Part shown: positions 48,016-64,000 of the stretch, piece after piece
Numbering within the stretch: the stretch's first letter is position 1
Layout: every line of letters starts with the position of its first letter
Origin: Peristeroidobacter soli
GTDB lineage: Bacteria; Pseudomonadota; Gammaproteobacteria; Steroidobacterales; Steroidobacteraceae
Length of the DNA stretch: 64,000 nt
NCBI RefSeq assembly: GCF_004138485.1
Contig: NZ_RYEV01000003.1
Coordinates: 558,001-622,000 of the forward strand
Reading direction: 5' to 3'
The notes under the pieces: model-generated
What the model was told of the DNA's origin: nothing
The model's database searches: none
What the model saw: only the letters and a program-made list of their open reading frames with translations
Made by a program: the position numbers and the translations under genes

Positions 48016-48028
48016 CGATCCGAACGTT

Positions 48029-49381: not shown

Positions 49382-49565
49382 GAAGCAATCCTACTTTGGA
49401 GCATGAACGGCTGAGCGGCCGCCCTTGTGAAGACCAACGGTGATGTTATGGGTTCGATGTCAGGCCCGGATTCTATGGTGACTGGCAACTCCCGTGCATA
49501 TCCCTGTGCGCAGCCCGGTGGGCAGGATGTGGATAACTTGTGGGCTTACCGTTGATGGTCGGTGG

Positions 49566-49581
49566 ACACAAGATGTTGTGG
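49566..49581 (+). promoter_or_regulatory. NrdR box (weaker)
   Basis: ACACAAGATGTTGTGG matches the arms of the NrdR dyad with three mismatches. It is 176 bp from the strong box. NrdR sites usually lie about 30 bp apart, so the wide spacing is unusual and looping would be needed for cooperative binding. Confidence 0.45.
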
Positions 49582-49741
49582 TTTGCCGCGTTTGCGGAGA
49601 TACTGGCGTTCTCTTTTCGGCAGCGCCGAAATCCTCCCGCAAAACCTCGCAAGCCCTTGAACTATACGGGCTTTCCGAGCCTATTTTTCGCAGGAGGGTT
49701 TCTTGACGGCTTCATGACATGGGTCTAGGCTCGTGCCCCTG

Positions 49742-49757
49742 ACACAATATGTAGTGT
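49742..49757 (+). promoter_or_regulatory. NrdR box (strong)
   Basis: ACACAATATGTAGTGT is near-perfect against the NrdR consensus acaCwAtATaTwGtgt, differing at one core base. It lies 155 bp upstream of the nrdJa start and is the expected target of the ATP/dATP-sensing repressor NrdR. Confidence 0.75.
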
Positions 49758-49911
49758 CTCGCCGCGGAAAGAAAAACATGACCGGCGAGCTCGCTGCGCA
49801 GGTCAGATATGGACCGCCTGCTTGGGCTTGAAGGGGCCTGGGGGGAGGGAGTTATGGGACGTCAGTTGGGGACGATTGGCTCCCGCTCGCAATCCGGAGT
49901 TCTTTGCCGGC

Positions 49912-52056
49912 ATGAAGACCGCAATCAAACTTGAGCCCATGGATGTCAACAGCATTCCGTTCCAGGAAGCCTCGCTGGATATCTGGGACAAAAAATATCG
50001 ACTCTCCGCGAAAGACGGCACGCCCGTCGATCGCTCGATGGACGACACCTATAAACGGGTCGCCCGTGCCCTCGCCGACGTCGAGAAAGACGACGTGCGC
50101 GACACCTGGTACGAACAGTTTCTCTGGGCCCTGCGCAAGGGCGCGATTCCGGCCGGCCGCGTCACGTCGAACGCCGGCGCGCTGGAGCACAAGCCCGCCA
50201 CTTCCACGATCAACTGCACCGTGTCCGGCACCATTCTGGACTCGATGGATGACATTCTCGCGAAGGTCCACGAAGCGGGCCTGACGCTGAAGGCCGGCTG
50301 CGGCATCGGTTACGAATTCTCGACCATGCGCCCCAAGGGGGCGTATGTCTCCGGCGCCGGCGCATACACGTCGGGCCCGCTCTCGTTCATGGATATCTAC
50401 GACAAGATGTGCTTCACCGTGTCGTCGGCCGGCGGCCGTCGTGGCGCGCAGATGGGCACGTTCGATATCGGCCATCCGGACGCGATGGATTTCATCCGCG
50501 CCAAGCGCGAAGCCGGCCGGCTGCGTCAGTTCAACCTGTCGCTGCTGATCACCGACGATTTCGTCGAGGCGGTGAAGAAAGATCAGGATTGGCAGCTGGC
50601 CTTCCCGGTTAGCCAGCGCGAGCTGGAGGGCGATGAGAACCTGCAGGACAAGACCCAGTACCTGTGGCGCGAGTGGCCGACCAAGGAAGGCTATGTCGTG
50701 AACGACACCGGTCTGGTCTGCTGCAAGATCTACAAGACCCTGCCCGCCAAGCGCATGTGGGACGTCATCATGTCGTCCACCTATGACTTCGCCGAACCGG
50801 GCTTCGTGCTCATCGACAAAGTCAACGAAATGAACAACAACTGGTGGTGCGAAAACATTCGCGCCACCAATCCTTGCGGCGAGCAGCCGCTGCCGCCGTA
50901 CGGCTCGTGCCTGCTCGGCTCGATCAACCTGACGCGCTTCGTGCTCGATCCGTTCACCGAAGACGCGCGCTTCGATTGGGAAGAGTTCCGCAAGGCCGTG
51001 AAAGTGTTCACGCGCATGCTGGACAACGTGGTCGAGATCAACGGTCTGCCGCTCGGGCAGCAGCGCGACGAGATCATGCGCAAGCGTCGCCATGGCATGG
51101 GCTTCCTGGGCCTGGGCTCGGCGATCACCATGCAATGCATGAAGTATGGTTCGAAGAAGTCGGTCGCGTTCACGCAGAACGTGTCGCGCGAAATGGCGCT
51201 GGCGGGCTGGGAAGCGGGCCTCGAGCTCGCCCGTGAGAAGGGCCCGGCCCCAATCATGGTCGAAGAGTTCGAGGTCACGCCGGAGATGCTCCGCAAGCGT
51301 CCCGAAATGGTGAAGGACGGCTGGCGCGTCGGCCAGAAAGTTCACGGCCGCACGTTGCACGCCAGGTACAGCCGCTACATGCAGCGCGTCGCCGAAGCCG
51401 CGCCGGAGCTGGTCGATGAGCTGGCCGAAGTCGGTGCGCGCTTCACGCATCACAGCTCGATCGCGCCGACCGGCACGATTTCGCTGTCGCTGGCGAACAA
51501 TGCTTCGAATGGCATCGAGCCGTCGTTCGCACATCACTACTTCCGCAACGTGATCCGCGAAGGCAAGAAGAGCAAGGAGAAGATCGACGTGTTCTCCTTC
51601 GAGCTGCTGGCCTATCGCGAGCTGATCAATCCGCGCGCGATGCCGAACTCGAATGTTCCCGCCGAGAAGCTGCCCGAGTACTTCACTACGGCCGACAACA
51701 TCACGCCGAAGGAACATGTCGACATCCAGGCGGCCTCGCAGCTGTGGATCGACTCCTCGATCTCCAAGACGGCGAACGTGCCGACGGATTATCCGTACGA
51801 GGATTTCAAGAACATTTATCTGTATGCCTACGAGCAGGGCCTGAAGGGCTGCACCACGTTCCGGTTCAATCCGGAAGCGTTCCAGGGCGTGCTGGTCAAG
51901 GAAGAGGACCTGAAGAACACGACCTACGTGTTCACGCTGGAAGACGGCACCGAAGTGAAGGTGCGTGGCGATGAAGAGATCGAGTACGACGGCGAGAAAC
52001 ACACCGCCGCCAATCTCTTCGACGCGCTCAAAGAAGGCTACTACGGGAAATTCTAA
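49912..52056 (+). CDS. nrdJ: B12-dependent ribonucleotide reductase, large part (NrdJa)
   Basis: The protein has 714 residues from the ATG at 49912. RNR core motifs are GRVTSNAGALEHKPATSTINC near residue 84 (substrate-binding Cys), NPCGEQPLPPYGSCLLGSINL near residue 322 (catalytic NPCGE), and APTGTISLSLANNASNGIEPSF near residue 518. It reduces ribonucleoside diphosphates using adenosylcobalamin and works without oxygen. Unlike full-length NrdJ it stops before the C-terminal Cys-rich region, which is encoded by the next gene. Spacing to that gene is 59 bp. Confidence 0.92.
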   Translation: MKTAIKLEPMDVNSIPFQEASLDIWDKKYRLSAKDGTPVDRSMDDTYKRVARALADVEKDDVRDTWYEQFLWALRKGAIPAGRVTSNAGALEHKPATSTINCTVSGTILDSMDDILAKVHEAGLTLKAGCGIGYEFSTMRPKGAYVSGAGAYTSGPLSFMDIYDKMCFTVSSAGGRRGAQMGTFDIGHPDAMDFIRAKREAGRLRQFNLSLLITDDFVEAVKKDQDWQLAFPVSQRELEGDENLQDKTQYLWREWPTKEGYVVNDTGLVCCKIYKTLPAKRMWDVIMSSTYDFAEPGFVLIDKVNEMNNNWWCENIRATNPCGEQPLPPYGSCLLGSINLTRFVLDPFTEDARFDWEEFRKAVKVFTRMLDNVVEINGLPLGQQRDEIMRKRRHGMGFLGLGSAITMQCMKYGSKKSVAFTQNVSREMALAGWEAGLELAREKGPAPIMVEEFEVTPEMLRKRPEMVKDGWRVGQKVHGRTLHARYSRYMQRVAEAAPELVDELAEVGARFTHHSSIAPTGTISLSLANNASNGIEPSFAHHYFRNVIREGKKSKEKIDVFSFELLAYRELINPRAMPNSNVPAEKLPEYFTTADNITPKEHVDIQAASQLWIDSSISKTANVPTDYPYEDFKNIYLYAYEQGLKGCTTFRFNPEAFQGVLVKEEDLKNTTYVFTLEDGTEVKVRGDEEIEYDGEKHTAANLFDALKEGYYGKF

Positions 52057-52115
52057 CGAGTTGTCGGCGGCGCGCGCGGAGCGCGCTGCCGCCGCACTGG
52101 AAGCAGGTTGAAACC

Positions 52116-52832
52116 ATGAGCTCCAAGATCGACAAGAAAATCGTCAAGTACCGGGTCGAGAAGCCCGAGGACCGGGCCGCGGCCGAAAAGGCCGCCGCCG
52201 AAGCCGCGCAGGCCAAGGAGCGCAAGGAAGAATCGAACGTCGTCTGGATGCACGAGAAAGTCGAGCGTCCGGACGTACTGATCGGCTCGACCTACAAGAT
52301 CAAGACGCCGGTGTCGGATCACGCCATGTACGTGACCATCAACGACATCATCCTGAACGAAGGCACCCGCCACGAGCAGCGCCGCCCGTTCGAGATCTTC
52401 ATCAACTCCAAGAACCTGGATCATTTCCAATGGATCGTGGCGTTGACCCGGATTCTCTCGGCCGTGTTCCGCAAGGGCGGCGACGTGACCTTCCTGGTCG
52501 ACGAAATGAAAGCCGTGTTCGATCCTCGCGGCGGCTACTGGCAGACCGGCGGCAAATTCATGCCGTCCATCATCGCCGAGCTGGGCTACGTGGTCGAAAA
52601 GCATCTGCAGACCATCGGCCTGCTGAAGAAGCCGGAAATGGAAGAGGAACGCAGGAAGCTCATCGAGGAGAAGAAGGCTGAATACGAAGCGCGCAACAAG
52701 CAGCAGGACGCCTTCGCCAAGAGCCACTTCCCCGAGGGCGCGCAGCTGTGCTCCAAGTGCAGCACCACCGCCGTGGTGCTGATGGACGGCTGCATGACCT
52801 GCCTGAACTGCGGCGACTCGAAGTGCGGATGA
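52116..52832 (+). CDS. B12-dependent ribonucleotide reductase, C-terminal part (NrdJb)
   Basis: The protein has 238 residues. A charged helical linker (residues 15-42, Ala/Glu/Lys-rich) is followed by a TSCPD-like domain (YVTINDIILNEGTRHEQRRPFEIF near residue 69). The C-terminal zinc/redox Cys cluster is CSKC...CMTCLNCGDSKC near residue 210. It is the separated C-terminal half of NrdJ and would re-reduce the active-site cysteines. The same split into NrdJa/NrdJb occurs in Pseudomonas. Confidence 0.88.
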   Translation: MSSKIDKKIVKYRVEKPEDRAAAEKAAAEAAQAKERKEESNVVWMHEKVERPDVLIGSTYKIKTPVSDHAMYVTINDIILNEGTRHEQRRPFEIFINSKNLDHFQWIVALTRILSAVFRKGGDVTFLVDEMKAVFDPRGGYWQTGGKFMPSIIAELGYVVEKHLQTIGLLKKPEMEEERRKLIEEKKAEYEARNKQQDAFAKSHFPEGAQLCSKCSTTAVVLMDGCMTCLNCGDSKCG

Positions 52833-52893
52833 GCACTGTCGCCTGATACCAGTTTGATTGACGGCCTTGGGGACTACCCGCGCCGACCACCTG

Positions 52894-52924
52894 CGCCCCG
52901 CCTCGTGCGGGGCGTTTTCTTTTT
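52894..52924 (+). terminator. Rho-independent terminator after nrdJb
   Basis: Stem CGCCCCGC / GCGGGGCG with loop CTCGT, followed by TTTTCTTTTT. It ends the nrdJ operon. Confidence 0.85.
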
Positions 52925-52955
52925 GAGCGGACTGGACGGCGTTTGAATCTGAAGG

Positions 52956-53387
52956 CTAACCCCCGAACACACGCGGGTGGTTTTTCTTGACCCACGTGAC
53001 CGTCTCGTTGATCAAGCGATCCGCCCACTTGATGGCGCGTTCGACCTGTACTTCATCGGCCAATTGCATGTTGCCCTTGTATGTCACGTCGTTCCTGGCT
53101 TGACTCATGGCTTTAGCCTCGGCTACGGCTCCGCCCTTGAACCCGAGCGTCGTAAGCAGGTGCTGGAAGGATTCGGCATGGTGTCCCTCTCCTCTGGTCT
53201 GCTGTCTGTTGAGTTCGAGCACCGCTAATGCACAGTGGAGGCCTGCATCATAGGCAGCAAGAAATCGACGATAAGGTGTAATTACTTTCTTGTCCGCACG
53301 GGCATCCTGTAGATCAAGAACCGCTTGATGCAGGAGGTTTCTGGCCTTCTCGATATTGATATGGCGTTGTTGAGTCAGATCTGCCAT
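52956..53387 (-). CDS. HEPN-domain protein (putative toxin partner)
   Basis: This 143-residue all-helical protein has RHINIEKARNLLHQAVLDLQDA near the N-terminus, RRFLAAYDAGLHCALAVLE near residue 42, HHAESFQHLLTTLG near residue 69, and QARNDVTYKGN near residue 96. The last motif corresponds to the HEPN RNase motif, but the usual His is absent; instead it reads R-N-D-V-T-Y, as in UPF0332-like HEPN proteins. The start overlaps the 3' end of the MNT gene by 13 bp. HEPN partners of MNT are RNases or targets of AMPylation by the partner. Confidence 0.75.
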   Translation of the reverse strand: MADLTQQRHINIEKARNLLHQAVLDLQDARADKKVITPYRRFLAAYDAGLHCALAVLELNRQQTRGEGHHAESFQHLLTTLGFKGGAVAEAKAMSQARNDVTYKGNMQLADEVQVERAIKWADRLINETVTWVKKNHPRVFGG

Positions 53388-54001
53388 GGCACCTCTCCGA
53401 TCAGGTCAATCCGAGGATTGGCCAGGATGCTGCGGGCCACGGCCTCGCCCTTGTCGAGATCCGCGATGAACACGGCCGTGCCCAGGAACTGCGGGCTGAT
53501 CTCGTGCGAGAACTTGAGGCCGGTTTCTTGGAGCGACGTACGAATGTCCCATTCATCTTCCGCAGAGGCGCCGAGAATCAGTACGTCGATGTCGCTCTTC
53601 TCATGGGTTTGACCGCGTGCAAAGGAGCCGAAGACACAGGCGTAGTCGATCGATTTGAAGCGCCGAAGTTTGGATCGCAGCATTGCAATGAACTCGCTGT
53701 CCTGTCGAAGCAGCAAAAACAAGTGCTTCAATCGGGGATCCTCGAATGGAGCTCGATACTCCACGCCCCGTGGGGATTCTTGAACGCTCACGAGCCGGGC
53801 TTTGACAAGGTCGTTCAGGGTCTTATGGACCGAGCCGTAGGGAATCCCGGCCAGGCGGGCGAGCGCTCGCGGCGGATAGGTGTCCTTGGGGTCGGCCTGG
53901 GTGTAGAGCCACTGCACGATACGGGCTTTTGCACCGCTCCCGAACAGGGATGCCACCATGGGGCTGATTGAATTTTTTCCTTTAGATGCTTTGGCTTGCA
54001 T
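53375..54001 (-). CDS. wHTH-fused MNT nucleotidyltransferase (putative antitoxin)
   Basis: The protein has 208 residues. An N-terminal winged HTH (LFGSGAKARIVQWLY ... PPRALARLAGIPYGSVHKTLNDL, residues 18-67) is followed by the minimal nucleotidyltransferase motif GSFARGQTHEKSDIDVLI near residue 124 (GS-x10-DxD). MNT proteins of HEPN/MNT pairs neutralise the HEPN toxin by polyadenylylation or AMPylation. The HTH suggests it also represses its own operon, and the three palindromes just upstream fit that. Confidence 0.8.
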   Translation of the reverse strand: MQAKASKGKNSISPMVASLFGSGAKARIVQWLYTQADPKDTYPPRALARLAGIPYGSVHKTLNDLVKARLVSVQESPRGVEYRAPFEDPRLKHLFLLLRQDSEFIAMLRSKLRRFKSIDYACVFGSFARGQTHEKSDIDVLILGASAEDEWDIRTSLQETGLKFSHEISPQFLGTAVFIADLDKGEAVARSILANPRIDLIGEVPWQI

Positions 54002-54014
54002 GGCATCAGTGTAG

Positions 54015-54067
54015 CTACCTTTTGTAGCGATTGGCTACTAAAGGTAGTCGTTCACTACGAAAGGTAG
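54015..54067. promoter_or_regulatory. three CTAC-N5-GTAG palindromes with exact 20-bp period
   Basis: The sites at 54015-54027, 54035-54047 and 54055-54067 read CTACCTTTTGTAG, CTACTAAAGGTAG and CTACGAAAGGTAG. The first is the inverted form; its reverse complement CTACAAAAGGTAG shares the AAAGGTAG core. They lie 14-66 bp upstream of the HTH-MNT start codon. Two-turn spacing would put bound dimers on one DNA face, giving a candidate autoregulatory operator. Confidence 0.7.
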
Positions 54068-54377
54068 TCATTGGGTCACGGGCCTTCTGCGCAAAGTGTG
54101 CACGGCGTGGAGCGGCAAATTTTTGTATGCCGTCGCTCTATGCGGCCTATTCGTGTAAATCGCGGGCCGATTTTGTGGAGGCTCAGTATGCGTGAGCCGC
54201 TTGGGCGCGCAGCGGAGATTACGCGCTCCGTGTATGGAGGTAGTTCGTGCTTCGTTACGAAGGTTTGCAGCCGACCGTGCCTGTGCTGCCTTTAGCGGAT
54301 CTGTACTCGGATGACCGCGCAAGAGACCTCGCTATGATCGTTTTATTTTTCTGCGCACCTCGCGTACCGTCACGCGC
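54068..54377. other. 310-bp intergenic region without a clear gene
   Basis: No convincing gene is seen. A minus-strand frame (54068-54322, Arg/Pro/His-rich) lacks a ribosome site and homology that I can recall. The local composition is less GC-biased than the neighbours. The stretch likely contains the start region of the HEPN/MNT operon and the promoter of the endonuclease-family gene. Confidence 0.5.
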
Positions 54378-55109
54378 ATGCCGCTAAAACTCCTGACGCT
54401 GAACATCGAGCACGATCGTCATCTCGATCGGGTGGCGCAGACGATTGCCACGCATCTGCCTGACATCGTCTGTTTACACGAAGTGTTTGAGAAAGATTGC
54501 GCGACGCTGGCGGCTGTGGGCGATTACCAGGTGAAGTACGCCATCAGCACGCTCATGCCGGAGAGAAGCGGCGGTGGCAGCAGTCCGCGCAGTTGGGGGG
54601 TGGCTGTGCTGACGCGCGTGCCGGTGCATGCTCAAACCGTCGCCTACTATGCCGACGATCCGCGCATCCGGATCTTCGCTCAGCCGAACGATCCGCGGCG
54701 GCTCTTGGTCATGACTGAGATCGATCACGAGGGGCGGAGCTACAAGATCGGCTCCACTCATTTCACCTGGTCGATGGACGGCGAAACCACCGACGAACAG
54801 CGCGCGGATTTCGCCAGGCTCAAGCAGGCGCTGCTGCCCTATCCAGACTATGTGCTGTGTGGCGACTTCAACGCGCCGCGCGGCAGAGAAATGTTCGCCC
54901 TGTTCACCGACGAGCTGGGGCTCATCGATCACCTACCCGCCGATGTCACCACCACGATCGATGCGCAGTTCCACTATGCCGGCGCGCTCGAGTACGCGGT
55001 CGATACGATTTTCGCCACGCCGGAGTATCGGCTGACGGACGTGCAGGTGCTCGAGGGGATCAGCGATCACAAGGGCATATTGGCGAGCGTCGAGCGGCGG
55101 GCGCCGTGA
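54378..55109 (+). CDS. endonuclease/exonuclease/phosphatase-fold hydrolase
   Basis: The protein has 243 residues. Motifs are LKLLTLNIEHDRHLD at the N-terminus (Asn-Glu), DIVCLHEVFEKD near residue 29 (catalytic Glu), IGSTHFTWS near residue 127, YVLCGDFNAPRGREMF near residue 156 (DxN), and ISDHKGILASV near residue 230 (SDH). This is the full Mg-dependent EEP catalytic set. The substrate (nucleic acid, phosphoinositide or sphingomyelin) is unknown. There is no signal peptide. Confidence 0.88.
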   Translation: MPLKLLTLNIEHDRHLDRVAQTIATHLPDIVCLHEVFEKDCATLAAVGDYQVKYAISTLMPERSGGGSSPRSWGVAVLTRVPVHAQTVAYYADDPRIRIFAQPNDPRRLLVMTEIDHEGRSYKIGSTHFTWSMDGETTDEQRADFARLKQALLPYPDYVLCGDFNAPRGREMFALFTDELGLIDHLPADVTTTIDAQFHYAGALEYAVDTIFATPEYRLTDVQVLEGISDHKGILASVERRAP

Positions 55110-55181
55110 AGGAATCACCTCGGAATTTGCGGCGAGCAGGCAGGTCAATCACCTCATGCGCGTGGGTGTAGGGGCGTAAGC

Positions 55182-55847
55182 GTGAAAACCCTGGTTTTAG
55201 TCCTCGACCTCGCGGGCACCTTCGTCTTTGCCCTGGCCGGCGCGACGGCGGGCGCGCGCAGGCAGCTCGATATCTTCGGCGTTCTGGTGCTGGCGTTTGC
55301 GGCCGCATGCGCGGGTGGCATCGTGCGTGATGTATTGATTGGCGCTACGCCGCCGGGAGCGATTACCGATTGGCGATTCCTGGCGGCATCGGTGCTGGCG
55401 GGGGTCATTGCGTTCAAGTGGCATGCGGCGATCGAGCGCATGGCGAATCCGGTTCGAATGTTCGATGCCGCGGGGCTCGCGTTGTTTGCAGTCGCGGGCA
55501 CTCAAAAGGCGCTGGCGTACGAACTCAATCCGGTGATGGCGGCGCTGCTCGGCATGCTCACGGGGATCGGCGGTGGTGTCGTTCGCGACGTGTTGCTGGC
55601 ACAGATTCCGTTGGTGCTCCGGGCTGAGCTCTACGCAGTGGCGGCGTTGGGTGGTGCGACGGTGGTCGTGTTGGGCGATCAGTTCGGCGCGCCGCCGGTG
55701 CCCGCGGCATTGTGTGGGGCGGCTTTTTGTTTTGTCTTGCGCGTGCTGGCCATCAGGCGGGGCTGGCAGTTGCCGAAGGCGCTTCAGCAGCCCGCGGGCG
55801 CCGCCGGCGAAAAGCCCGCGAGCGAGCGCAAAGACGCCAGGCTGTAG
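55182..55847 (+). CDS. TRIC-type trimeric cation channel family (UPF0126)
   Basis: The protein has 221 residues in two repeated halves, each with three helices: LDLAGTFVFALAGATAGARR near residue 5, AACAGGIVRDVLIGATPP near residue 40, and the second copy FDAAGLALFAVAGTQKAL near residue 95, GIGGGVVRDVLLAQIPLVL near residue 127. The GGxxRDxL motif pair is the TRIC/UPF0126 hallmark. A trimeric potassium-permeable channel is expected. Confidence 0.88.
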   Translation: MKTLVLVLDLAGTFVFALAGATAGARRQLDIFGVLVLAFAAACAGGIVRDVLIGATPPGAITDWRFLAASVLAGVIAFKWHAAIERMANPVRMFDAAGLALFAVAGTQKALAYELNPVMAALLGMLTGIGGGVVRDVLLAQIPLVLRAELYAVAALGGATVVVLGDQFGAPPVPAALCGAAFCFVLRVLAIRRGWQLPKALQQPAGAAGEKPASERKDARL

Positions 55848-55907
55848 CGATTGTCGTCACCAGGAATGAGCTAGTATTCAGCGGCATTTTGTCGCTCAGG
55901 ATCCGGC

Positions 55908-57491
55908 ATGTCCGCATTCGACCTGTTCAAGCGAGTCTCCAAGGCACCGACCAATCCGCACGTCAGTCCCGCCCGCCGGACCTTCGACATCGCCGATCTG
56001 TATCGCGGGCCGGTGGTCATCGCCGATGACAAAGCCGAGGGTCAGGAGCTGGCGCTGGATGAGAAGCTGCGCCAGGCCTACTTCTGGATCGTCAACACGG
56101 CCATCATCAGCCCGCACTACGACATCGAGTACAACGAAGAGCCGCCGCAGGAATTCAGCATCGGCGATCACAAGAGCCGGCTGACGCTGCCCACCGGGCA
56201 AAGTTATTCCAGCTTCGTGCTGTTGCCGCTGCTCACATTCGCCCTGCGTCGCAAGTGCCTGCTGATCGGCGGGCCGGGGCGCGGCAAGACCGCCAGCGCA
56301 ATTCTGATGGGCGTGCTGGGCGGCTACTCATTGAAAGACGTGCGGCGCTCGATGCTTCACGGTCACCCGCAGATGACCACGGCCGACCTGCTCGGCAATC
56401 CACTGCCGGCCGATCTCATCAACGCGCAGAAGGTCGAAGACATCCGCATCGCCTGGCGCAAGTGGCTGTCGATGCGTGTGAAGATCGTGGACGAATACAA
56501 CCGCATTCCGACACGCACCCAGAGCGCGCTGCTCACCGTGATGGGCGACAACTACGCCGAGCTGCTTGACCAGATTCACGAATGTCCCGAATCGGCATGG
56601 TTCCTCACCGCCAACGACGAGCAGGGCGGCGGCACGTATCAGGTGATCGAAGCGTTGCGCGATCGTATCGACGTGATCGTACAGGCGCTGTCCTTCAATC
56701 CGCGTTTCCTGGGGCAGCTGCTGACCCGGATCGAGGAAGGCATTCGTCCGGAAGAGGCGATGCCCAAAGAAATCGTGTTCACGGAAGCGCAGATCGATCG
56801 CATGGGGGCGCAGATTCGCGCCATCCAGTTGAGTCCGGAAGTGCGCCGGCGCATCGAGTTCTTCTCGAGTCAGTTCGAGTTCTGCGATGTCGCCGCCGAG
56901 CAGTTCGAATACAAAACCAAGGACACGGCGCGGCTGGCCGGAGTCGAGTGGCACACACTGACTGCGCAGGAAACCGGCAAGGATCGGCTCAAGGATCTCG
57001 GCGCGCAGTCGAAGAACGGCATCTCCGTGCGCATGTTGATGACCTTGCTTCTCTATGCCAAGGCGATGGCGTTCTTCCGTGGTAACCCCGCAGTGGAACT
57101 GAGCGATGTTCGCCAGATCCTGCCGTTCGTATTCCACGACAAGCTCATCCCGGACATCGACGCGCCGTTCTTCGAAAGCGCCGGCAACGCCATGTTCCGC
57201 AGCGATCGCGTCGGCTGGTTGCGCCGGCTGTTCGATCTTTCGTGTGCCGAGTACGAACGACTGAATCTCGACCAGGACGATGCGGTGCTGGCGCTCACCA
57301 CTCAGTTCGATCGCGGTCTGGAGGGCTTGAGCGAGAGCGACACGCGCCAGCAGTTGTTTCAGATCGAGCGCACCGTCAATGAGCTGATCAAAGGACAGAA
57401 GCTGTACGGTCACTTATATGACGACCTGCTCAAGCTGAAGTATCTGCATCAGCGTTACACCAATTATCTGCGCTGGCTGCGCGCGGGTTGA
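55908..57491 (+). CDS. MoxR-type AAA+ ATPase
   Basis: This 527-residue protein has an N-terminal extension of about 110 residues, then Walker A CLLIGGPGRGKTASAIL near residue 119. Walker B reads VKIVDEYNRIPTRTQSALL near residue 196, with the ExN-type substitution of this group. Sensor 1 WFLTANDEQGGGTY lies near residue 227, and EALRDRID and arginine-finger sequence near residue 248. MoxR ATPases partner with VWA-domain proteins to insert metals or remodel complexes. The stop overlaps the start of the next gene, which begins the coupled cluster. Confidence 0.85.
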   Translation: MSAFDLFKRVSKAPTNPHVSPARRTFDIADLYRGPVVIADDKAEGQELALDEKLRQAYFWIVNTAIISPHYDIEYNEEPPQEFSIGDHKSRLTLPTGQSYSSFVLLPLLTFALRRKCLLIGGPGRGKTASAILMGVLGGYSLKDVRRSMLHGHPQMTTADLLGNPLPADLINAQKVEDIRIAWRKWLSMRVKIVDEYNRIPTRTQSALLTVMGDNYAELLDQIHECPESAWFLTANDEQGGGTYQVIEALRDRIDVIVQALSFNPRFLGQLLTRIEEGIRPEEAMPKEIVFTEAQIDRMGAQIRAIQLSPEVRRRIEFFSSQFEFCDVAAEQFEYKTKDTARLAGVEWHTLTAQETGKDRLKDLGAQSKNGISVRMLMTLLLYAKAMAFFRGNPAVELSDVRQILPFVFHDKLIPDIDAPFFESAGNAMFRSDRVGWLRRLFDLSCAEYERLNLDQDDAVLALTTQFDRGLEGLSESDTRQQLFQIERTVNELIKGQKLYGHLYDDLLKLKYLHQRYTNYLRWLRAG

Positions 57492-57493
57492 CG

Positions 57494-58480
57494 ATGATCA
57501 GCGCTCCTCTCGCCGAGGCGTTACAGGCGCGACGTGCGGATTTCAACGCGCGCTTCAGGCTCGCCGCGCAACGCTATCCGCAGCTCGATGGTCAGGAGCT
57601 GCTGCGATTCATTGCCGATGCGGTCGAGCCACTCGCACAGGCGGTTCATGCAAATCATCCTGATGCCGTCGGTGATGTTGTCAGTGTCGCGTACGACTGC
57701 TCGCTGCAACTGGTAGGGCAGCGACTGTCGCTCGATGCGGGTCGCTATGGCGCGATTCCTGAAACCTGGCGCGAGGTGTTGCCGCCAGCGGCTGGCCTGA
57801 TCGCCTCTCAGCCCGCGCGTGTAATGGCGTCGCTAACGAATGCGGCCCATCAACTCGCAAGCACGGAGTCCGCCGACGTGAATCGATGGGTGCGCGCGTT
57901 GAAGGGCATCGCATCTCAATGCGCAACGCCGGACGAGTTATTAATGGTGGGGCAGGTGGGCGCGTGGCAATGTGGGCTGGCGCACTATCGCGAGGGTGCA
58001 CTCGGCGCGATTCCGTCGCTGCCGACCAAACTTGCGTGCACGGTGCTGGGTATCGAGTCGAAACAATTTGAACCCGTGCTTCGGCGATTGCAGGAAGATC
58101 GCTGGTTCGATCCCGCGCACCCGAATGCAGAGTCGTTACGCATCGTGCGCAGCGCCGGCGCGTTTCGTGGTTTCGGCGGCCCATTCCTGCAGCCGCCTTT
58201 GCTCAAAAGCGCGGACAGCGGCTGGCTCGTGCAGAGTGCCGATGACTATTGGTTCCTGGTCGCGGACGCATTCGGCGCGACACTTCATCGCAGTACCGCC
58301 GAAGAGTGGCGTGCGCAGCCGGCGAAGAAAGAAGAACACGTCGGCACGCGAGTGGTCTACAACGGCAAGTCGCTCGATATGCCGGGCGCGGGCCCCATCA
58401 CCAGCAGCGGATCGAGCACGGGCGCGATTGCCTGTACGTTCGCTCATTCGCATCAGATCGTGCTGGTCGCGCTGAAGTAA
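57494..58480 (+). CDS. hypothetical protein, middle member of the MoxR-VWA cluster
   Basis: The protein has 328 residues from the ATG at 57494; a TTG at 57488 that overlaps the previous stop is an alternative. The first 180 residues are helical (DAVGDVVSVAYDCSLQLVGQ, VMASLTNAAHQLA), and the C-terminal part has beta-rich sequence with PGAGPITSSGSSTGAIACTF. I recognise no domain. It sits between a MoxR ATPase and a VWA protein, where adaptor proteins are common. It could recruit a client or a substrate. Confidence 0.65.
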   Translation: MISAPLAEALQARRADFNARFRLAAQRYPQLDGQELLRFIADAVEPLAQAVHANHPDAVGDVVSVAYDCSLQLVGQRLSLDAGRYGAIPETWREVLPPAAGLIASQPARVMASLTNAAHQLASTESADVNRWVRALKGIASQCATPDELLMVGQVGAWQCGLAHYREGALGAIPSLPTKLACTVLGIESKQFEPVLRRLQEDRWFDPAHPNAESLRIVRSAGAFRGFGGPFLQPPLLKSADSGWLVQSADDYWFLVADAFGATLHRSTAEEWRAQPAKKEEHVGTRVVYNGKSLDMPGAGPITSSGSSTGAIACTFAHSHQIVLVALK

Positions 58481-58485
58481 CTATC

Positions 58486-60285
58486 GTGCTCAACGACGAG
58501 CCACTTTCACGGTTACGCGAACGCTGGACGGCGGCCTGGCCGAAAGCGCTCGCTGCGTGGAGCAGGCACGTCGTGCTTCATGCGCCGTCTTTGTGTGCGG
58601 ACGATCGTGAAGCGGAGCAGGAAGGGCTGACCGAGAGCTTCGCGATGATCCGTCTGGCGGATCAGTCCATCATCATCAATCTCGCGGCTATCGAACGGCA
58701 CGGGCTCGGCGATTACGCCGAAGAAATCCTGGCGCACGAGATCGGCCATCATGTCCTGGCGCCGGCGAATCTGACGGATCACGCTCGTTCGCTCGCGCGT
58801 ATCCGACAGGCGCTGCCGACGCTGGAAGCGCATGCGCCGATGATTGCTAACCTGTTCACCGATCTGCTGATCAACGATCGGTTGCAGCGGAGTGCCGAGC
58901 TGCGGCTCGCCGAGGTGTTCAAGAAGCTGACCCTCGACAAGAGGGAAGCGGGCGGAACCCTGTGGCGAATCTATCTGCGGACCTACGAGTTGCTGTGGTC
59001 GCTGGAGCGCGGCTCGCTGGCCGATGGCAAGTTGAGCGCGGAAGCCGAGGGTGATGCGTGGCTGGCGATGCGCATCGTTCGTCACTATTCGCGCAACTGG
59101 ATCGAAGGCGCGGCGAAGTTTGCGATGTTGATGTTGCCGTATCTCGCCAAGGACGCGCTCGACGCGAGTGCCGCCCGCGCCTGGCACGACACGCGCGCGG
59201 CTGGAGCGGGCGGTGAGCCGTCAGGGTTGGCGGAAGCGGATGAGAATGATGGCAAGCCGATGGTGCATCCGTCGCGTGATCCGGAAATCACCGGACATGA
59301 AGGGCCGGGTTCGCAAACGGAGTCGAAGAAAACACTTGAAGCGGCGACTCAAAACCGGCCCGGCGGGCAGACTCGCCAGCCGTTCGAATACGGTGAGATT
59401 CTGCGCGCCGCCGGCGTGACTCTAAGCGATCACGACATCGCCGTCTCGTACTACCGCGAGAAGGCCGCGCCTCATTTGATTCGGTTCCCGGCGCGGCGCA
59501 AGCCGGCGAGCCTCGATCCGTTGCCGGAAGGCATCGAGCCGTGGCAAATGGGCGAGTCCTTCGACAGCATCGATTGGCTGCAAACCATCATGCAGAGTCC
59601 GAGGATCGTTCCCGGCATGACGACGGTGCAGCGGGTGTGGGGAGTGTCGCCAGGTGCCGAGCCGGCCAGCGTGCCGCTGAATCTGGACGTATTCATCGAC
59701 AGCTCGGGCAGCATGCCCAATCCGCAGCAGTTTTTGTCTTTTCCGACTTTGGCGGGCGCGATCCTGTGTCTGTCGGCGCTGCGGGCCGGAGCGAGGGTCA
59801 AAGTCACGGTTTGGAGCGGCAAGAATCAAGTGACATCGACGCCGGGTTTCGTTCGCGATACCCAGGAAGTCATGCGCGCCTTGATCAGTTACTACGGTGG
59901 CGGGACACAGTTTCCGCTGCACGAGCTGCGCGAGACGTATCTTGAAACGAAGCGCGCGCTCAATCCCACGCATCTGCTGTTCATCTCCGACGACGGCATC
60001 ACGACGATCTTCGATAAGGATGAGCGCGGACACGAGGGTTGGGATTTGTTTCGCGCGGCCCTGGCCAAGGCCGCCGGCGGTTCGACTTTTGTCTTGAATC
60101 TGGGCAAGGAGTGGGAGACCGCTCAGTACGCCTTCCCGCATCGGGAGCTGTTGATTCGCGCTCGTGATGAGCTCGGCATTCGCATCGCTCGTATCGAAGA
60201 TTGGGAACAACTGGTGGAATTCGCGCGGGACTTCGCGAGAACCGTCTATCAACCGGCGGAGCCGTCCGCGAGAGCGACGGCATGA
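58486..60285 (+). CDS. metallopeptidase-like (HEXXH) protein with C-terminal VWA domain
   Basis: The protein has 599 residues, starting at a GTG 6 bp after the preceding stop. Residues 1-220 are helical and hold the zinc-type motif ILAHEIGHHVLAP near residue 84. A low-complexity linker (Gly/Glu/Pro, residues 230-300) follows. A VWA domain with MIDAS DVFIDSSGSMPNP near residue 402, and GGGTQFPLHELRETY near residue 473, ends it. The pairing of a predicted peptidase with VWA resembles the DUF2201/COG3864 family. MoxR-VWA partnership is known. The HEXXH suggests it may process a precursor. The stop overlaps the radical SAM start (ATGA). Confidence 0.8.
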   Translation: MLNDEPLSRLRERWTAAWPKALAAWSRHVVLHAPSLCADDREAEQEGLTESFAMIRLADQSIIINLAAIERHGLGDYAEEILAHEIGHHVLAPANLTDHARSLARIRQALPTLEAHAPMIANLFTDLLINDRLQRSAELRLAEVFKKLTLDKREAGGTLWRIYLRTYELLWSLERGSLADGKLSAEAEGDAWLAMRIVRHYSRNWIEGAAKFAMLMLPYLAKDALDASAARAWHDTRAAGAGGEPSGLAEADENDGKPMVHPSRDPEITGHEGPGSQTESKKTLEAATQNRPGGQTRQPFEYGEILRAAGVTLSDHDIAVSYYREKAAPHLIRFPARRKPASLDPLPEGIEPWQMGESFDSIDWLQTIMQSPRIVPGMTTVQRVWGVSPGAEPASVPLNLDVFIDSSGSMPNPQQFLSFPTLAGAILCLSALRAGARVKVTVWSGKNQVTSTPGFVRDTQEVMRALISYYGGGTQFPLHELRETYLETKRALNPTHLLFISDDGITTIFDKDERGHEGWDLFRAALAKAAGGSTFVLNLGKEWETAQYAFPHRELLIRARDELGIRIARIEDWEQLVEFARDFARTVYQPAEPSARATA

Positions 60286-61238
60286 TCGTCATCTGGCGCG
60301 TCACGACTCATTGCAATCTCGGCTGTGGCTACTGCGCCTATGATCGCAATCTGCCGTTCGAGCGCGCCGACGTCGATGAGGGCACGGTGCTGCGGATGGC
60401 GCGGTTGTTCTCTGAGTATCAATCGCGAACCGGCGCTACGGTGATGATCAGCTGGCTGGGCGGTGAGCCGCTGCTCTGGAAGCCGCTCGCGTCAGTGTCG
60501 AAGATGCTGTCCAAGGAGCTTGGCTTGCAGCTCAGTGCAACGACCAATGGCACCGCGCTGAAGTCAGCGGCACTGCGCTCGATGATCGCCGACGACTTCG
60601 CCGAGCTGACCGTGAGCGTCGACGGGCCAGCAGCCTTTCACGACCGCGTCCGGCGCTGGCCGGGCGGGTTCGAGCACCTGCGATCCGTGGTCACACAGTT
60701 GCGGGCCGACACGCAGAGTCGCGAACGCAGGCTGCGCTTGCGAGTGAATACAGTGTTGATGGCGAAGAACATTCACCTGTTCGGTGAGCTGTGCGAGCAG
60801 CTGATCTCGTGGGGCATCGATGAGATCACGTTCAACCAGCTCGGCGGCAACGATCGGCCGGAGTTTTATCGGGAGCATCGTCTGCGCCCCGAGGACGTTG
60901 AGACGCTGACAAAGATGCTGCCCCGATTGCGGGACCGACTCTGGGCGCATGGCATTCGACTCAGCGGTGGCTCGCAGTACTTGCATCGGTTCCGAGCCAG
61001 CGCGTCGGGCGAGCGATTGCGCGTCGATAGTTGCAATCCGGGTAAGAAGTTTCTGTTCATCGATGAGCGCGGCCAGGTCGCTCCGTGCAGCTTCACGCTG
61101 GCGGACTACGATGTGCATGTCGACGAACTGCGCTCAGTCGAGGATTTGATGACGTTGCACAGTCGCTATGAGCAGCGCCGGTCGCATTGGTGCGATGATT
61201 GTCCCAGCACCCAGGTCTTCGAGAAGTTCGTGGCGTAA
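60282..61238 (+). CDS. radical SAM protein with C-terminal Cys cluster
   Basis: This 318-residue protein starts at the ATG overlapping the preceding stop. The SAM [4Fe-4S] motif is CNLGCGYCAYD near residue 12 (CxxxCxxC), and WLGGEPLLW near residue 64 is the SAM-binding GGE. VSVDGPAAFHDRVR lies near residue 113. The C-terminal third has extra Cys residues (CNPGKKFLFIDERGQVAPC near residue 248, CDDCPS near residue 305) resembling a SPASM/twitch auxiliary-cluster arrangement. SPASM enzymes modify peptides or activate partner enzymes. The substrate is unknown; the nearby peptidase and ligase point to a small-molecule or peptide product. Confidence 0.85.
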   Translation: MIVIWRVTTHCNLGCGYCAYDRNLPFERADVDEGTVLRMARLFSEYQSRTGATVMISWLGGEPLLWKPLASVSKMLSKELGLQLSATTNGTALKSAALRSMIADDFAELTVSVDGPAAFHDRVRRWPGGFEHLRSVVTQLRADTQSRERRLRLRVNTVLMAKNIHLFGELCEQLISWGIDEITFNQLGGNDRPEFYREHRLRPEDVETLTKMLPRLRDRLWAHGIRLSGGSQYLHRFRASASGERLRVDSCNPGKKFLFIDERGQVAPCSFTLADYDVHVDELRSVEDLMTLHSRYEQRRSHWCDDCPSTQVFEKFVA

Positions 61239-61240
61239 CC

Positions 61241-61825
61241 ATGCAAAAAGAAGGACCCCCGCTTCAGCAGCTCCTGCATCGGATCACGGCGACCCCGCCG
61301 GACTTCATGGCCGAGCCGCGCATCGGCAACAAGGGCGAGGTACATACGGTCGCCGTCGTGCGGGACCTGCTTGCGTCCAAGGGACACGTCGTCGAGCTTG
61401 CCAGCTTGAGCGCGCTGGCGGGGCGGGACGTGAAGGCCGACCGGAATCGCCTGTCGATCACGTTGCTCATCGCGTGGTTGCTGGCCGATCCAGCGCTGAC
61501 GATAGAGCGTGAGCGCCTGGTCGACATACTGACTTTGTTGAAGGACGATGCCACGCGCCTTGCCGGATACACGAACGCTCGGCAGCTGTTCGAGGACCTG
61601 GAGCGTCGTGAGGAGTTGGCGCGACTGACTTTGTCCAAGCTCGGGCTGCGGCCTGCCGGCGAGACGATGGCGCAAGCGCAAGACCGATTCACGAGCATCA
61701 GCTCGCTGGAGCGGGCGCGATTGCTGGCGGCGTCGCAGGAGGCCGAGGCGCGGGCGCGTGCTATCCGCGAGCAACTGGCGAAGAAGGCGGCTGAAGAGTC
61801 CGCGAACAAGTGGACGCGCGAGTGA
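61241..61825 (+). CDS. small helical protein, possible substrate or adaptor
   Basis: The protein has 194 residues starting 2 bp after the radical SAM stop. The first part (EPRIGNKGEVHTVAVVRDLL) is basic, the middle hydrophobic (LLIAWLLAD), and the C-terminal 60 residues form a charged coiled coil (SLERARLLAASQEAEARARAI...). There is no signal peptide or Cys motif. I recognise no family. The location directly between the radical SAM gene and the ligase makes it a candidate partner or carrier. It has no Gly-Gly-type leader site that would mark an obvious RiPP precursor. Confidence 0.6.
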   Translation: MQKEGPPLQQLLHRITATPPDFMAEPRIGNKGEVHTVAVVRDLLASKGHVVELASLSALAGRDVKADRNRLSITLLIAWLLADPALTIERERLVDILTLLKDDATRLAGYTNARQLFEDLERREELARLTLSKLGLRPAGETMAQAQDRFTSISSLERARLLAASQEAEARARAIREQLAKKAAEESANKWTRE

Positions 61826-63165
61826 GCGACGAAGAGAGTCGCCATCCCAATATCTCGGAGCACGGCCAGCGCATGCTGGCGCAGCTCAGAGAGCATCCGA
61901 GCGCACCGATCTATCGGAATCAAAGCGGGCACCGTCTGTTGCCCGGCGAGGTTGATCGAGCGCGAGCGTTGGAAGACGAAGCAGTTCGCGCCACGATCGA
62001 TTGGCAGCCCAATGTGCCGCCCGCCTGGGTGAAGTCGTTCGTCGAGCGATGTTTCAGCGCGTCGCCTTTCTATCGTCGTTACGGCGCCATGCCTCGCAGC
62101 TTCACCGAGCTGCCAACGATGACACGCGAAGATCTCGCGCGTGACATGCCGTATCTGGTGCCGGACGACATCGATATCGACCGGCTCATCAACTTTCGAA
62201 CCAGCGGCACCAGCGGCCATCCGTTGCTGATGGCATCGCATCCGCTGGTCGCGGCTCAGTACCTCGGTTATCACAAACGGGCGCTGCGCCGGTTCGGTGT
62301 GACGCTCAGGCACGGGCGCGGCCAGGTTGGCGTCATCCTGCTGGGCGTGCAGTCCATCTGCTTCACGTATGTCTCCATCACGCCGACCATGGATGATTCG
62401 GGTCTGGCGAAGATCAATCTGCATCCTAACGACTGGCGCTCGCTCGACGACCGGGCGAAGTATCTGGAGGCGATGAATCCGGAGGTGCTCGCGGGCGATC
62501 CCATTTCGTTCGCGACGCTGCTCGACATCGATCCCAAGCTCCGACCCGCCGCGTTGCTATCCACGTCGATGACGCTCATGCCGGCGCTTCGCGAGCGGCT
62601 CGAGGAACGTTTCGGCTGTCCCGTGCTCGACCTCTACTCCATGAACGAAGCGGGGCCGATTGCGGTGCTCGATGAGACAGCGGGCGGTCATGTGCTGCTT
62701 CAACAGCGCATGTATGTGGAGATTCTGGATGATGCCGATCGGCCTGTCGCTCCGGGCCAGCGCGGCGAAGTGACGCTCACCGGCGGCTTCAACTTCTGCC
62801 TGCCGCTGGTTCGTTATCGCACCGGAGATCACGCGTCGCTGGAACGTCGCGGCGACGATCTCGTGCTGATCGGGCTCGAAGGCCGGCCGCCCGTGAAGTA
62901 CCGGCGTCACGATGGCCGGTGGCTCAACAACATCGAGATCACGCATGCGTTACGCCCGATGCCCATCGTGCAGTTCAGCGTGCATCAGGATGCGTCGGCG
63001 CATATCCGCGTCGACTACGTTGCGGCGTCGGTCGCGCCGGGCGATGTGGAGCGGGCGCTGCGAGCGCTGTTTGGTGAGGAAACTTCGTTGCAAGTCAGTC
63101 AGGTCGACAGCTTCGATCGCAAGATCATTCAATACACGTCTGCGTTGCCCGGAGCGCAGGCGTGA
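61822..63165 (+). CDS. PaaK-like adenylate-forming enzyme
   Basis: The protein has 447 residues from the GTG at 61822, overlapping the previous stop; the GTG at 61810 is possible. ANL-type motifs are FRTSGTSGHPLLM near residue 125 (P-loop-like), LLSTSMTLMPALRERLEERFGCP near residue 246, LYSMNEAGPIA near residue 270, and RYRTGDHASLE near residue 332. The family (phenylacetate-CoA ligase, coenzyme F390 synthetase) activates carboxylates as acyl-AMP before thioester or amide formation. Likely ligates or activates a product of the radical SAM step. Confidence 0.82.
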   Translation: MSDEESRHPNISEHGQRMLAQLREHPSAPIYRNQSGHRLLPGEVDRARALEDEAVRATIDWQPNVPPAWVKSFVERCFSASPFYRRYGAMPRSFTELPTMTREDLARDMPYLVPDDIDIDRLINFRTSGTSGHPLLMASHPLVAAQYLGYHKRALRRFGVTLRHGRGQVGVILLGVQSICFTYVSITPTMDDSGLAKINLHPNDWRSLDDRAKYLEAMNPEVLAGDPISFATLLDIDPKLRPAALLSTSMTLMPALRERLEERFGCPVLDLYSMNEAGPIAVLDETAGGHVLLQQRMYVEILDDADRPVAPGQRGEVTLTGGFNFCLPLVRYRTGDHASLERRGDDLVLIGLEGRPPVKYRRHDGRWLNNIEITHALRPMPIVQFSVHQDASAHIRVDYVAASVAPGDVERALRALFGEETSLQVSQVDSFDRKIIQYTSALPGAQA

Positions 63166-63758
63166 GAGCGTGGGAGATCGCCGCCAATCTGGCGTATCTG
63201 GTTTCCATCCTGCTCGCGACCCGGAACAGTGGGCACACGTGGTGGACCGGCATCGTCGGCTGCTTGCTGTTCGGTTGGGTGTTTCTGCAGACGCAGTTGT
63301 ACGCGGATCTGACGCTGCAGGGGTTCTTCATCGTCACCAGCATCTACGGCTGGTGGCATTGGCAGCGAGGTTGCGAAGGCGCGCCGGCGCCAATCCAGAG
63401 AAGCTCGGCGCGCGAGATCGTCATGTGGGCGGCGGCGGCAATTGTTGGTGCGATCGGCTACGGGGCGCTGCTGCTGAGGTTTACGGATGCGTATGCGCCG
63501 TTCGTCGACTCGCTGGTGCTGACGTTCAGCATTCTGGCGCAGCTTTTGTTGATGCGTCGGCGTGTCGAGACCTGGTGGTGTTGGCTGGTCGTGAACACCA
63601 TCGCGGTGCCCCTTTATCTGAGTCGTGATTTGCAGCTGACCGCCGCGTTCTACGCCGCCTATTGGGTCAATGCATGCGTGGCGATGCCACGCTGGTATGC
63701 GTTGTTGTGTCGGGAGCGGAGTCTGCAGGTGTCGCAGGTTTCCGCCGGTGCTCAGTGA
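63162..63758 (+). CDS. pnuC: nicotinamide riboside/mononucleotide transporter PnuC
   Basis: The protein has 198 residues starting at a GTG with overlap to the preceding stop. Seven hydrophobic segments are seen, with the PnuC hallmark FIVTSIYGWWHWQRG near residue 58 and the C-terminal AAFYAAYWVNACVAMPRWYALL segment. It imports vitamin B3 nucleosides by facilitated diffusion. The next gene begins with overlap (GTGA) and encodes the expected NadR kinase/adenylyltransferase. Confidence 0.88.
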   Translation: MRAWEIAANLAYLVSILLATRNSGHTWWTGIVGCLLFGWVFLQTQLYADLTLQGFFIVTSIYGWWHWQRGCEGAPAPIQRSSAREIVMWAAAAIVGAIGYGALLLRFTDAYAPFVDSLVLTFSILAQLLLMRRRVETWWCWLVVNTIAVPLYLSRDLQLTAAFYAAYWVNACVAMPRWYALLCRERSLQVSQVSAGAQ

Positions 63759-64000
63759 GTGCTCGATTTGAATGGGGTCTGGTGGTGGGGAAGTTCGCGC
63801 CGCTCCACCGAGGGCATCAGCATGTGATCGACACGGCATTGAGCCAGTGTCGTCACGTCGTTCTGCTGTCGTATTCGAATCCAGAGATGCCTGGCTGCGA
63901 GCCGGCGCGACGCGAGGGCTGGCTCGCGGCGCTATATCCGCAAACGACGCGGCTGGTCGTGACGAATGAGCGACTGGCGATATGGTTCGGCGATCAGCAG
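63755..64000 (+). CDS. nadR: NadR-like nicotinamide-nucleotide adenylyltransferase (N-terminal part)
   Basis: The first 82 codons lie in the window and the gene continues beyond it. GTG at 63755 overlaps the pnuC stop. The opening LVVGKFAPLHRGHQHVIDTAL holds the HxGH adenylyltransferase motif at its expected N-terminal position, and CRHVVLLSYSNPEM follows. It lacks the DNA-binding domain of E. coli NadR at its start. It converts nicotinamide mononucleotide to NAD; a C-terminal kinase would be expected past the window. Confidence 0.8.
   Translation, partial: MSARFEWGLVVGKFAPLHRGHQHVIDTALSQCRHVVLLSYSNPEMPGCEPARREGWLAALYPQTTRLVVTNERLAIWFGDQQ

Follow-up and report, generated by a model that had tools for sequence, protein, structure and literature searches.

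An eight-gene operon in Peristeroidobacter soli

We analysed a 64,000-nucleotide stretch of the 9.4 Mb genome of Peristeroidobacter soli (contig NZ_RYEV01000003.1, positions 558001-622000; hereafter the window), which ends in a compact operon of eight genes (Table 1). These encode, in order, a MoxR-type AAA+ ATPase, a middle protein of no known family, a protein that joins an N-terminal HExxH motif to a C-terminal von Willebrand factor A (VWA) domain with a metal ion-dependent adhesion site (MIDAS), a radical S-adenosylmethionine (SAM) enzyme, the orphan protein orf5, a PaaK-like adenylating enzyme, PnuC and NadR. With the starts chosen here, all eight genes read on the plus strand and are spaced by +2, +5, −4, +2, −4, −4 and −4 bases; overlaps reach at most 4 bases and gaps at most 5, confirming the tight co-directional packing that an initial annotation of this DNA had described. 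The motifs it had named (Walker A and B, HEXXH, MIDAS, CxxxCxxC and those of ANL enzymes, PnuC and NadR) are all present in the translations; orf5 and the middle protein were not among the families in its title. Matches to AAA_3, AAA_lid_2, Radical_SAM, AMP-binding, NMN_transporter and AAA_28 exceed their Pfam cut-offs, and among the NCBIfam matches listed only PnuC attains its cut-off. GC content is 0.622 in the operon and 0.626 in the remaining window. The eight genes very probably constitute one functional unit. Comparison with related loci shows that MoxR, the middle protein, the HExxH-VWA protein, orf5 and the PaaK-like enzyme form its core, that the radical SAM enzyme is optional and that the link of NadR and PnuC to the core is not accidental.

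Table 1. Predicted genes of the operon and its flanks; positions are those of the window unless prefixed L002
Feature	Position	Strand	Length (amino acids)	Family matches and remarks
MoxR-type AAA+ ATPase	55908-57491	+	527	Pfam AAA_3 8.3e-08, AAA_lid_2 4.8e-05
Middle protein	57494-58480	+	328	No known family
HExxH (zincin-like) and C-terminal VWA/MIDAS protein	58486-60285	+	599	
Radical SAM enzyme, optional part	60282-61238	+	318	Pfam Radical_SAM 2.3e-14
orf5, all-helical orphan	61241-61825	+	194	Pfam: none
PaaK-like ANL-superfamily adenylating enzyme	61822-63165	+	447	AMP-binding 3.1e-09
PnuC, nicotinamide riboside transporter family	63162-63758	+		NMN_transporter 1.5e-46; TIGR01528
NadR, nicotinamide mononucleotide (NMN) adenylyltransferase and ribosylnicotinamide kinase	63755-64000, on to L002:12855	+		AAA_28 2.7e-34
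RpiR-type regulator	L002:12836-13729	Convergent to NadR		Overlaps NadR end by 20 bases
Gly_transporter (PF03458) gene	55182-55847			60 bases upstream of MoxR

A rare gene set with a conserved core

One scan of genome contigs for exact matches to either of two short peptide patterns, a search that misses divergent relatives, returned 35 further loci (L011-L045), which are mutually related rather than independent and include many from metagenome-assembled genomes (MAGs). Together with the window these make 36 loci, which the record titles assign to five phyla, mostly with the same gene order; the Acidobacteriota, Actinomycetota and Chloroflexota loci come from MAGs only, and wrong binning is possible for them. 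The closest named relative is a Steroidobacter MAG, with 86% identity in the HExxH-VWA protein. Two culturable environmental strains, Paucimonas lemoignei DSM 7445 (L023) and Pseudoxanthomonas daejeonensis DSM 17801 (L020), carry the operon in full. Across the 36 loci, some of whose contigs end early, the VWA protein is found at 36, the middle protein at 35, MoxR at 34, orf5 at 33, the PaaK-like enzyme at 32, NadR at 25, and the radical SAM enzyme and PnuC at 15 each. Gene starts are those of our own codon-usage caller, which missed or shortened PnuC in L024 and L050 and NadR in L028; these were recovered by tblastn.

The HExxH-VWA protein is rare. It occurs in 2 of 98 relatives and in 3 of 398 genomes of a phylum sample, with the genome of P. 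soli counted in both, and in 2 of 99 genomes from the family of one match, both of which had already been found. In the 398-genome set, which we took as identical for the VWA, NadR and orf5 searches and in which up to three VWA and up to eight orf5 candidates were scored per genome, orf5 is found in the same three genomes, plus one weak 59-residue match with a stop. Thus orf5, to which the initial annotation had assigned no role, is as system-specific as the VWA protein in this sample. Relatives of the HExxH-VWA protein were found neither in plasmids nor in viral contigs, and plasmid or viral carriage was rejected on these zero matches, in a search that did not extend to the collection of phage records. 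The VWA tree conflicts with taxonomy. On it, two Acidobacteria MAG loci (L014 and L016) are placed within Burkholderiales with a support of 97, suggesting either transfer between phyla or wrong binning.

NadR and PnuC are linked to the core

NadR adjoins the PaaK-like gene, directly or with only PnuC between, in 28 of the 36 cases, or 28 of 34 once L016 and L037, whose contigs end inside PaaK, are set aside as unreadable beyond that gene. For L017 and L011 what seems to be the rest of the operon lies on a second contig (L074 and L075, respectively), with PnuC and NadR after PaaK. In a Rhodobacteraceae MAG locus that is one of the 28, L044, a divergent NadR-PnuC pair (L044:8578-10163) stands directly after the PaaK-like gene and convergent to the core. 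Ten Oxalobacteraceae loci (L026, L028, L029, L031, L033, L036, L038 and L041-L043) carry NadR without PnuC beside the core, as read at the locus only. Outside the operon itself, no gene family recurs near more than 6 of the 36 loci.

Genome-wide, NadR is matched in 33 of the 36 core genomes, with all best matches below 1e-10 and the three genomes without a match being MAGs, and in 41 of the 398 phylum-sample genomes, 3 of which are core genomes. Co-occurrence of the core with NadR, often with PnuC, thus lies well above the background of the sample (33/36 core against 38/395 control genomes) and does not refute the linkage, as a chance-level frequency would have done by the criterion of the initial annotation. 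The comparison has flaws: the 36 genomes are interrelated, some lie outside the control's phylum, and the control was scored less deeply (up to 5 NadR candidates per genome at an E limit of 1e-10, against up to 20 at 1e-5 in core genomes). A close NadR subfamily (at least 280 bits) is found in 27 of 36 core genomes and in 3 of the 395 controls; these three (G243, G397 and G447) hold PnuC-NadR pairs, with none of the remaining core genes in the 19 kb that we read.

Because of these flaws in the co-occurrence comparison, the NadR tree is important. On this tree, which lacks the L049 NadR and places the Chloroflexota NadR with weak support, the distribution of linked NadR takes six changes, at least four of them forced by supported branches, and 0 of 500 shuffles gave a number as low. 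The linked L044 NadR is sister to an unlinked alphaproteobacterial NadR with a support of 98. Given these changes, and a divergent PnuC-NadR pair beside PaaK in two lineages, PnuC-NadR was probably recruited more than once.

Both proteins can be assigned with some precision. The PnuC of the window carries the motif WxxWxxxN, which we take to be characteristic of the family and which is present in 13 of 14 PnuC proteins checked; it passes the TIGR01528 cut-off and aligns with the solved PnuC structure 4qtn, and its NMN_transporter match together with the motif places it in the PnuC family. NadR contains GKFAPLHRGH and GGESSGKS, has sub-cut-off matches to CTP_transf_like (nucleotidyltransferase) and TIGR01526 (3.4e-39), and matches the solved NadR structures 9x6f, 8x7f, 1lw7 and 6gye. 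The pattern GK[FL]xPxHxGH is present in 24 of 25 called NadR proteins, the 25th (L028) missing its N terminus in the gene call, and a PxSG[TS]xxR-type motif and a P-loop are present in 25 of 25, with the L038 motif beginning with R. These features predict a NadR with both NMN adenylyltransferase and ribosylnicotinamide kinase domains.

A MoxR ATPase and its putative VWA partner

The ATPase contains the motifs GGPGRGKT and DEYN, extends about 115 residues on each side of its AAA and lid matches, and is 67-69% identical to Stenotrophomonas and Pseudoxanthomonas proteins. GGPGRGKT is present in 32 and [IV][IV]DEYNR in 33 of the 34 called MoxR proteins, fragments counted, and these motifs and its Pfam matches mark the protein as a MoxR-clade AAA+ ATPase with Walker A and B motifs. 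The VWA protein contains HEIGHH and DSSGS. HExGHH is present in 36 of 36 VWA proteins, and H84, E85 and H88 as well as the MIDAS residues D405, S407, S409, T474 and D502 are invariant among the 36 sequences. Pfam VWA_2 matches the window protein below its cut-off and 17 of the 36 members at E ≤ 0.1. The conserved residues nevertheless identify this protein as a probable MIDAS-bearing VWA partner encoded near MoxR.

Pfam matches of the middle protein all lie below cut-off at chance level, and no Pfam family matches more than one of 32 members. Its AlphaFold model has 12 helices followed by a beta domain (mean predicted local distance difference test (pLDDT) 93.6). A Foldseek comparison with the Protein Data Bank (PDB) returned no match at E ≤ 0.001 for this model (best 0.066) or for that of orf5 (best E 1.3), values too weak for us to accept a known fold for either protein.

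orf5, the PaaK-like enzyme and the optional radical SAM enzyme

The most distinctive feature of orf5 is its C terminus, K-x-[TS]-R-[ED], which is near-invariant and present in 33 of 33 aligned sequences. In 8 of the 33, with gene starts as called here, orf5 and the PaaK gene do not overlap but are separated by a gap, and a ninth has no adjacent PaaK gene; all nine retain the end, so that conservation of the tail is not solely a side effect of gene overlap. AlphaFold predicts only helices for orf5, the last of them long (pLDDT 92.8, about 59 for the last four residues).

The PaaK-like protein contains TSGTSGHP and YRTGD. Motifs that we take to be A3, A7 and A10 are visible in its alignment, and the C-terminal (A10-type) lysine is present in 25 of 26 complete sequences (28 aligned), L030 lacking it. 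Together with the AMP-binding domain, these motifs indicate an ANL ligase. Its best NCBIfam model is DVU_1553 AMP-dependent CoA ligase (1.1e-24, sub-cut-off), and its PDB matches include phenylacetate-CoA ligases; identity with the PaaK phenylacetate-CoA ligase equivalog was rejected (TIGR02155, 34.7 bits against a cut-off of 646.3).

In the radical SAM enzyme, C11, C15, C18, C251, C269, C304 and C307 are invariant among 13 aligned sequences, and the four extra C-terminal cysteines would be of the auxiliary-cluster type. Its top NCBIfam score is to the peptide maturase PapB (6.4e-19, sub-cut-off); none of the best 25 of 68 models is matched at its cut-off, the highest score being 68.4 bits against a cut-off of 340. 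Viperin (pVip) identity was rejected, with 55.5 bits to NF038283 against a cut-off of 180. The gene is present at 15 of 36 loci and in 16 of 36 genomes (E ≤ 1e-20), always in the slot between VWA and orf5 where it is at the locus (the L017 contig ends within the gene). On the VWA tree its presence takes eight changes, at least six of them forced, and this constant slot suggests an old gene that has been repeatedly lost. The loci L018, without the gene, and L019, with it, are sisters on this tree. The initial annotation made the radical SAM enzyme a maker of the system's product, a role that was overstated: 21 of 36 loci lack the gene, as do 20 of 36 genomes at E ≤ 1e-20, so that no product common to all can require it.

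Boundaries of the operon

The window cuts NadR, whose stop lies 855 bases beyond its end. NadR is the last gene of the unit, because the next gene, encoding an RpiR-type regulator, is convergent to it; past that gene, aldolase-, sugar kinase- and dehydrogenase-like genes, read by eye, follow on the plus strand. Upstream of MoxR, the Gly_transporter gene (PF03458, presumably of the TRIC/UPF0126 type) recurs, among all loci that we compared, at the other Steroidobacter locus alone and, for this reason, probably lies outside the system. A regulatory RNA near the operon was rejected, as no Rfam family reached its gathering score in window positions 48000-64000, the one stretch searched.

Relation to known systems

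The MoxR AAA+ ATPase and nearby MIDAS VWA partner are shared with CoxD-CoxE, RavA-ViaA and chelatase-type pairs, as described in section 8 of PMC7159879. Unlike in these pairs, the VWA protein here carries an N-terminal HExxH domain, a new middle protein stands between the two partners, and an ANL enzyme, orf5 and salvage proteins for nicotinamide adenine dinucleotide (NAD) are encoded alongside. CbbQ-CbbO and NorQ-NorD are further pairs of the MoxR/VWA type. Among the Pfam and NCBIfam matches listed for the operon proteins there are none to Cox, Rubisco, NO reductase or chelatase models. At the level of its sequences the core groups with MoxR/VWA remodelling systems, and it may work like one.

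Two other systems invite comparison. In a DUF2201 (PF13203) HxxxH-VWA protein at L063, a putative metallopeptidase domain is followed by a VWA-like region, and a P-loop protein is encoded immediately upstream (the VWA-like and P-loop assignments were read by eye). Membership of DUF2201 was rejected, as PF13203 and PF09967 match 0 of 36 members at E ≤ 0.1; hhalign aligned the VWA part alone, with a probability of 1.6% and a single-sequence template, likeness between the upstream ATPase of L063 and the MoxR protein here was not detectable, and a metal-ligand motif common to both was not confirmed. Both proteins of the PnuC-NadR pair resemble those of nicotinamide riboside salvage systems; here the pair closes a unit of eight genes.

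In the literature searched, which lacked most subscription journals and all bioRxiv preprints, the gene set is undescribed: we found no paper on MoxR with PnuC, MoxR with NadR only in a jumbo phage context, and none on MoxR, radical SAM, PnuC and NadR together or on a gene cluster of radical SAM, NadR and nicotinamide riboside.

Two proposed modules and a possible function

Pairwise distance correlations among the proteins (28 pairs) are highest for MoxR with VWA and for orf5 with PaaK (0.86 each), and NadR correlates with PaaK at 0.73 and with orf5 at 0.67. Rearranged loci divide along similar lines: a Chloroflexota MAG carries orf5-PaaK-PnuC-NadR (L050) apart from MoxR-middle-VWA (L032), and a Lysobacterales MAG carries radical SAM-orf5-PaaK (L046) apart from its L040 locus. 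From the observed gene set, order, co-occurrence and motifs we infer, tentatively and at less than even likelihood, that a MoxR/VWA machine remodels or loads an orf5/PaaK-like client that depends on locally made nicotinamide nucleotides.

In this proposal MoxR, the middle protein and the HExxH-VWA protein would form the remodelling machine (module A), and orf5, the PaaK-like enzyme, PnuC and NadR (module B) would supply the client and its substrate. In published MoxR-VWA pairs the VWA MIDAS captures a peptide of the client, which is restructured at the expense of ATP (PMC7159879, section 8). Here, the MIDAS would capture an acidic peptide of the client and the ATPase ring would restructure it, and we suggest that the VWA domain docks the conserved acid-ended tail of orf5. 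This tail fits the published scheme, as do the ATPase motifs, which are intact, and the MIDAS, which is complete. PnuC would import nicotinamide riboside and NadR would convert it to NMN and NAD, while the adenylating enzyme would activate a carboxylate for a product needing a nicotinamide nucleotide. The pairing of an ANL enzyme with genes that would lead from nicotinamide riboside to NAD points towards such a product or client, although its chemistry, the client role of orf5 and the PaaK-like enzyme, and the use of the nucleotide are all conjectural. The radical SAM enzyme may add an optional modification. Of the initial reading, in which a product of the radical SAM and adenylating enzymes was matured or loaded by the MoxR/peptidase module and tied to NAD supply, the linkage of the core with NadR and PnuC stands, and maturation by MoxR/VWA fits published pairs by analogy; the radical SAM enzyme was given too large a part, and orf5 none.

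Several observations weigh against this proposal. The middle protein correlates with orf5 (0.82) and PaaK (0.79) more strongly than with VWA (0.77) or MoxR (0.76); because it thereby fits both modules, the division into two is weakened. NadR correlates poorly with MoxR (0.51) and VWA (0.45). Six of the 34 readable cases lack NadR beside PaaK: L014, L015, L022 and L030, whose genomes have a PnuC-NadR pair elsewhere, and the L040 genome (at L046) and L045 genome (at L083), both MAGs, in which no NadR was found. Even in the 28 linked cases PnuC stands beside NadR in just 18. In the Lysobacterales MAG of L045 and L083 the parts are scattered, and neither MoxR nor the middle protein was seen at the locus. 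This MAG, with VWA-radical SAM-orf5 on one contig and the PaaK-like gene on another, may hold a decaying copy or a scattered copy, or reflect an assembly effect.

Alternative explanations

An unlikely alternative is that NAD supply itself is the purpose, the operon serving nicotinamide riboside salvage and the MoxR/VWA/zincin machine and PaaK-like enzyme assembling, controlling or tuning the salvage enzymes. The presence of NadR in nearly all core genomes agrees with this, as do six core genomes without a match to NadA, three of which are Lysobacteraceae records with no MAG label; these six may be unable to make NAD de novo. L021 (Xanthomonas sp.), L024 and L025 (Stenotrophomonas spp.) carry the operon with PnuC-NadR and have no NadA match, and these genomes may depend on salvage of NAD precursors. 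However, NadA is matched in 30 of 36 core genomes, including that of the window, so that most should not need salvage for NAD, salvage is unlikely to be their sole source, and NAD auxotrophy was rejected as the whole explanation. Core-free PnuC-NadR pairs stand alone in six other genomes (three of the close NadR subfamily and three others), none with a VWA match, and salvage therefore does not need the core. The adenylating enzyme and orf5 would also be left unexplained.

A bolder and rather improbable reading is that the operon encodes a new pathway to a prosthetic group derived from a nicotinamide nucleotide. The nucleotide would be the product of NadR acting on imported nicotinamide riboside; the PaaK-like enzyme would adenylate a carboxylate on or for it, and MoxR and the HExxH-VWA protein would insert the group, possibly together with a metal, into a client that orf5 holds. 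The nickel-pincer nucleotide pathway offers a parallel, with unrelated enzymes.

A role in conflict or defence, in which the MoxR/VWA/peptidase proteins would sense and act and PnuC and NadR would refill NAD during attack, is improbable. It would agree with the patchy distribution in both genome samples and with the conflict between VWA tree and taxonomy, and MoxR-VWA ternary conflict systems, of which one class, the FtsH type, includes a radical SAM gene, are described in PMC7159879. Unlike these, the present system couples an ANL enzyme and NAD salvage, and no FtsH, VMAP or iSTAND family was matched among 32 middle proteins or by any of the eight operon proteins, nor were toxin families by the operon proteins. 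For VMAP, iSTAND and FtsH components, our assumption is that Pfam does contain models. Of the eight proteins, only the radical SAM enzyme has PADLOC matches at E ≤ 0.01, all of them to viperin-type models. Among 108 neighbours scanned of 170 listed, mostly the nearest two per side with some long ones dropped, 16 PADLOC models matched at E ≤ 1e-10, with one protein each; an Avs3b-like model and one for a type IV restriction enzyme are among them. The best 25 of 128 neighbour Pfam families are ordinary (transporters, glycosidases, chemoreceptors, regulators and enzymes), and the absence of relatives from plasmids and viral contigs also argues against defence. We rejected a defence-island reading as unsupported by the PADLOC and Pfam scans of operon and neighbours.

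Equally doubtful is a peptide- or protein-modification pathway, with orf5 as precursor, modification by the radical SAM enzyme, cleavage by the HExxH protein, finishing by the adenylating enzyme and the NAD genes feeding a redox step. The auxiliary cysteines and top-scoring PapB match of the radical SAM enzyme, the almost unchanging orf5 C terminus and the position of orf5 after the radical SAM gene at 14 of 15 loci (the L017 contig ends first) speak for it. Yet orf5 and its tail persist at most of the 21 loci that lack the radical SAM gene, orf5 is a predicted folded helical protein of 194 residues, larger than usual precursors, and its end is its least variable part.

That NadR and PnuC stand beside MoxR and VWA by accident, as the 8 of 36 cases with no NadR seen beside the core PaaK (two by contig end) might suggest, is highly improbable given linkage in most readable cases, repeated recruitment on the NadR tree and the scarcity of any other recurrent neighbour.

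Discussion

MoxR/VWA machines occur widely and, to our knowledge, many have clients still to be discovered. The operon described here presents two conserved proteins, orf5 and the middle protein, with confident predicted folds and no PDB match by Foldseek, and NAD salvage genes that were probably recruited to a single system more than once. It ties a MoxR/VWA machine, by gene order across records titled as five phyla, to a few possible clients and to nicotinamide riboside as a single metabolite, and for this reason its function would be directly testable.

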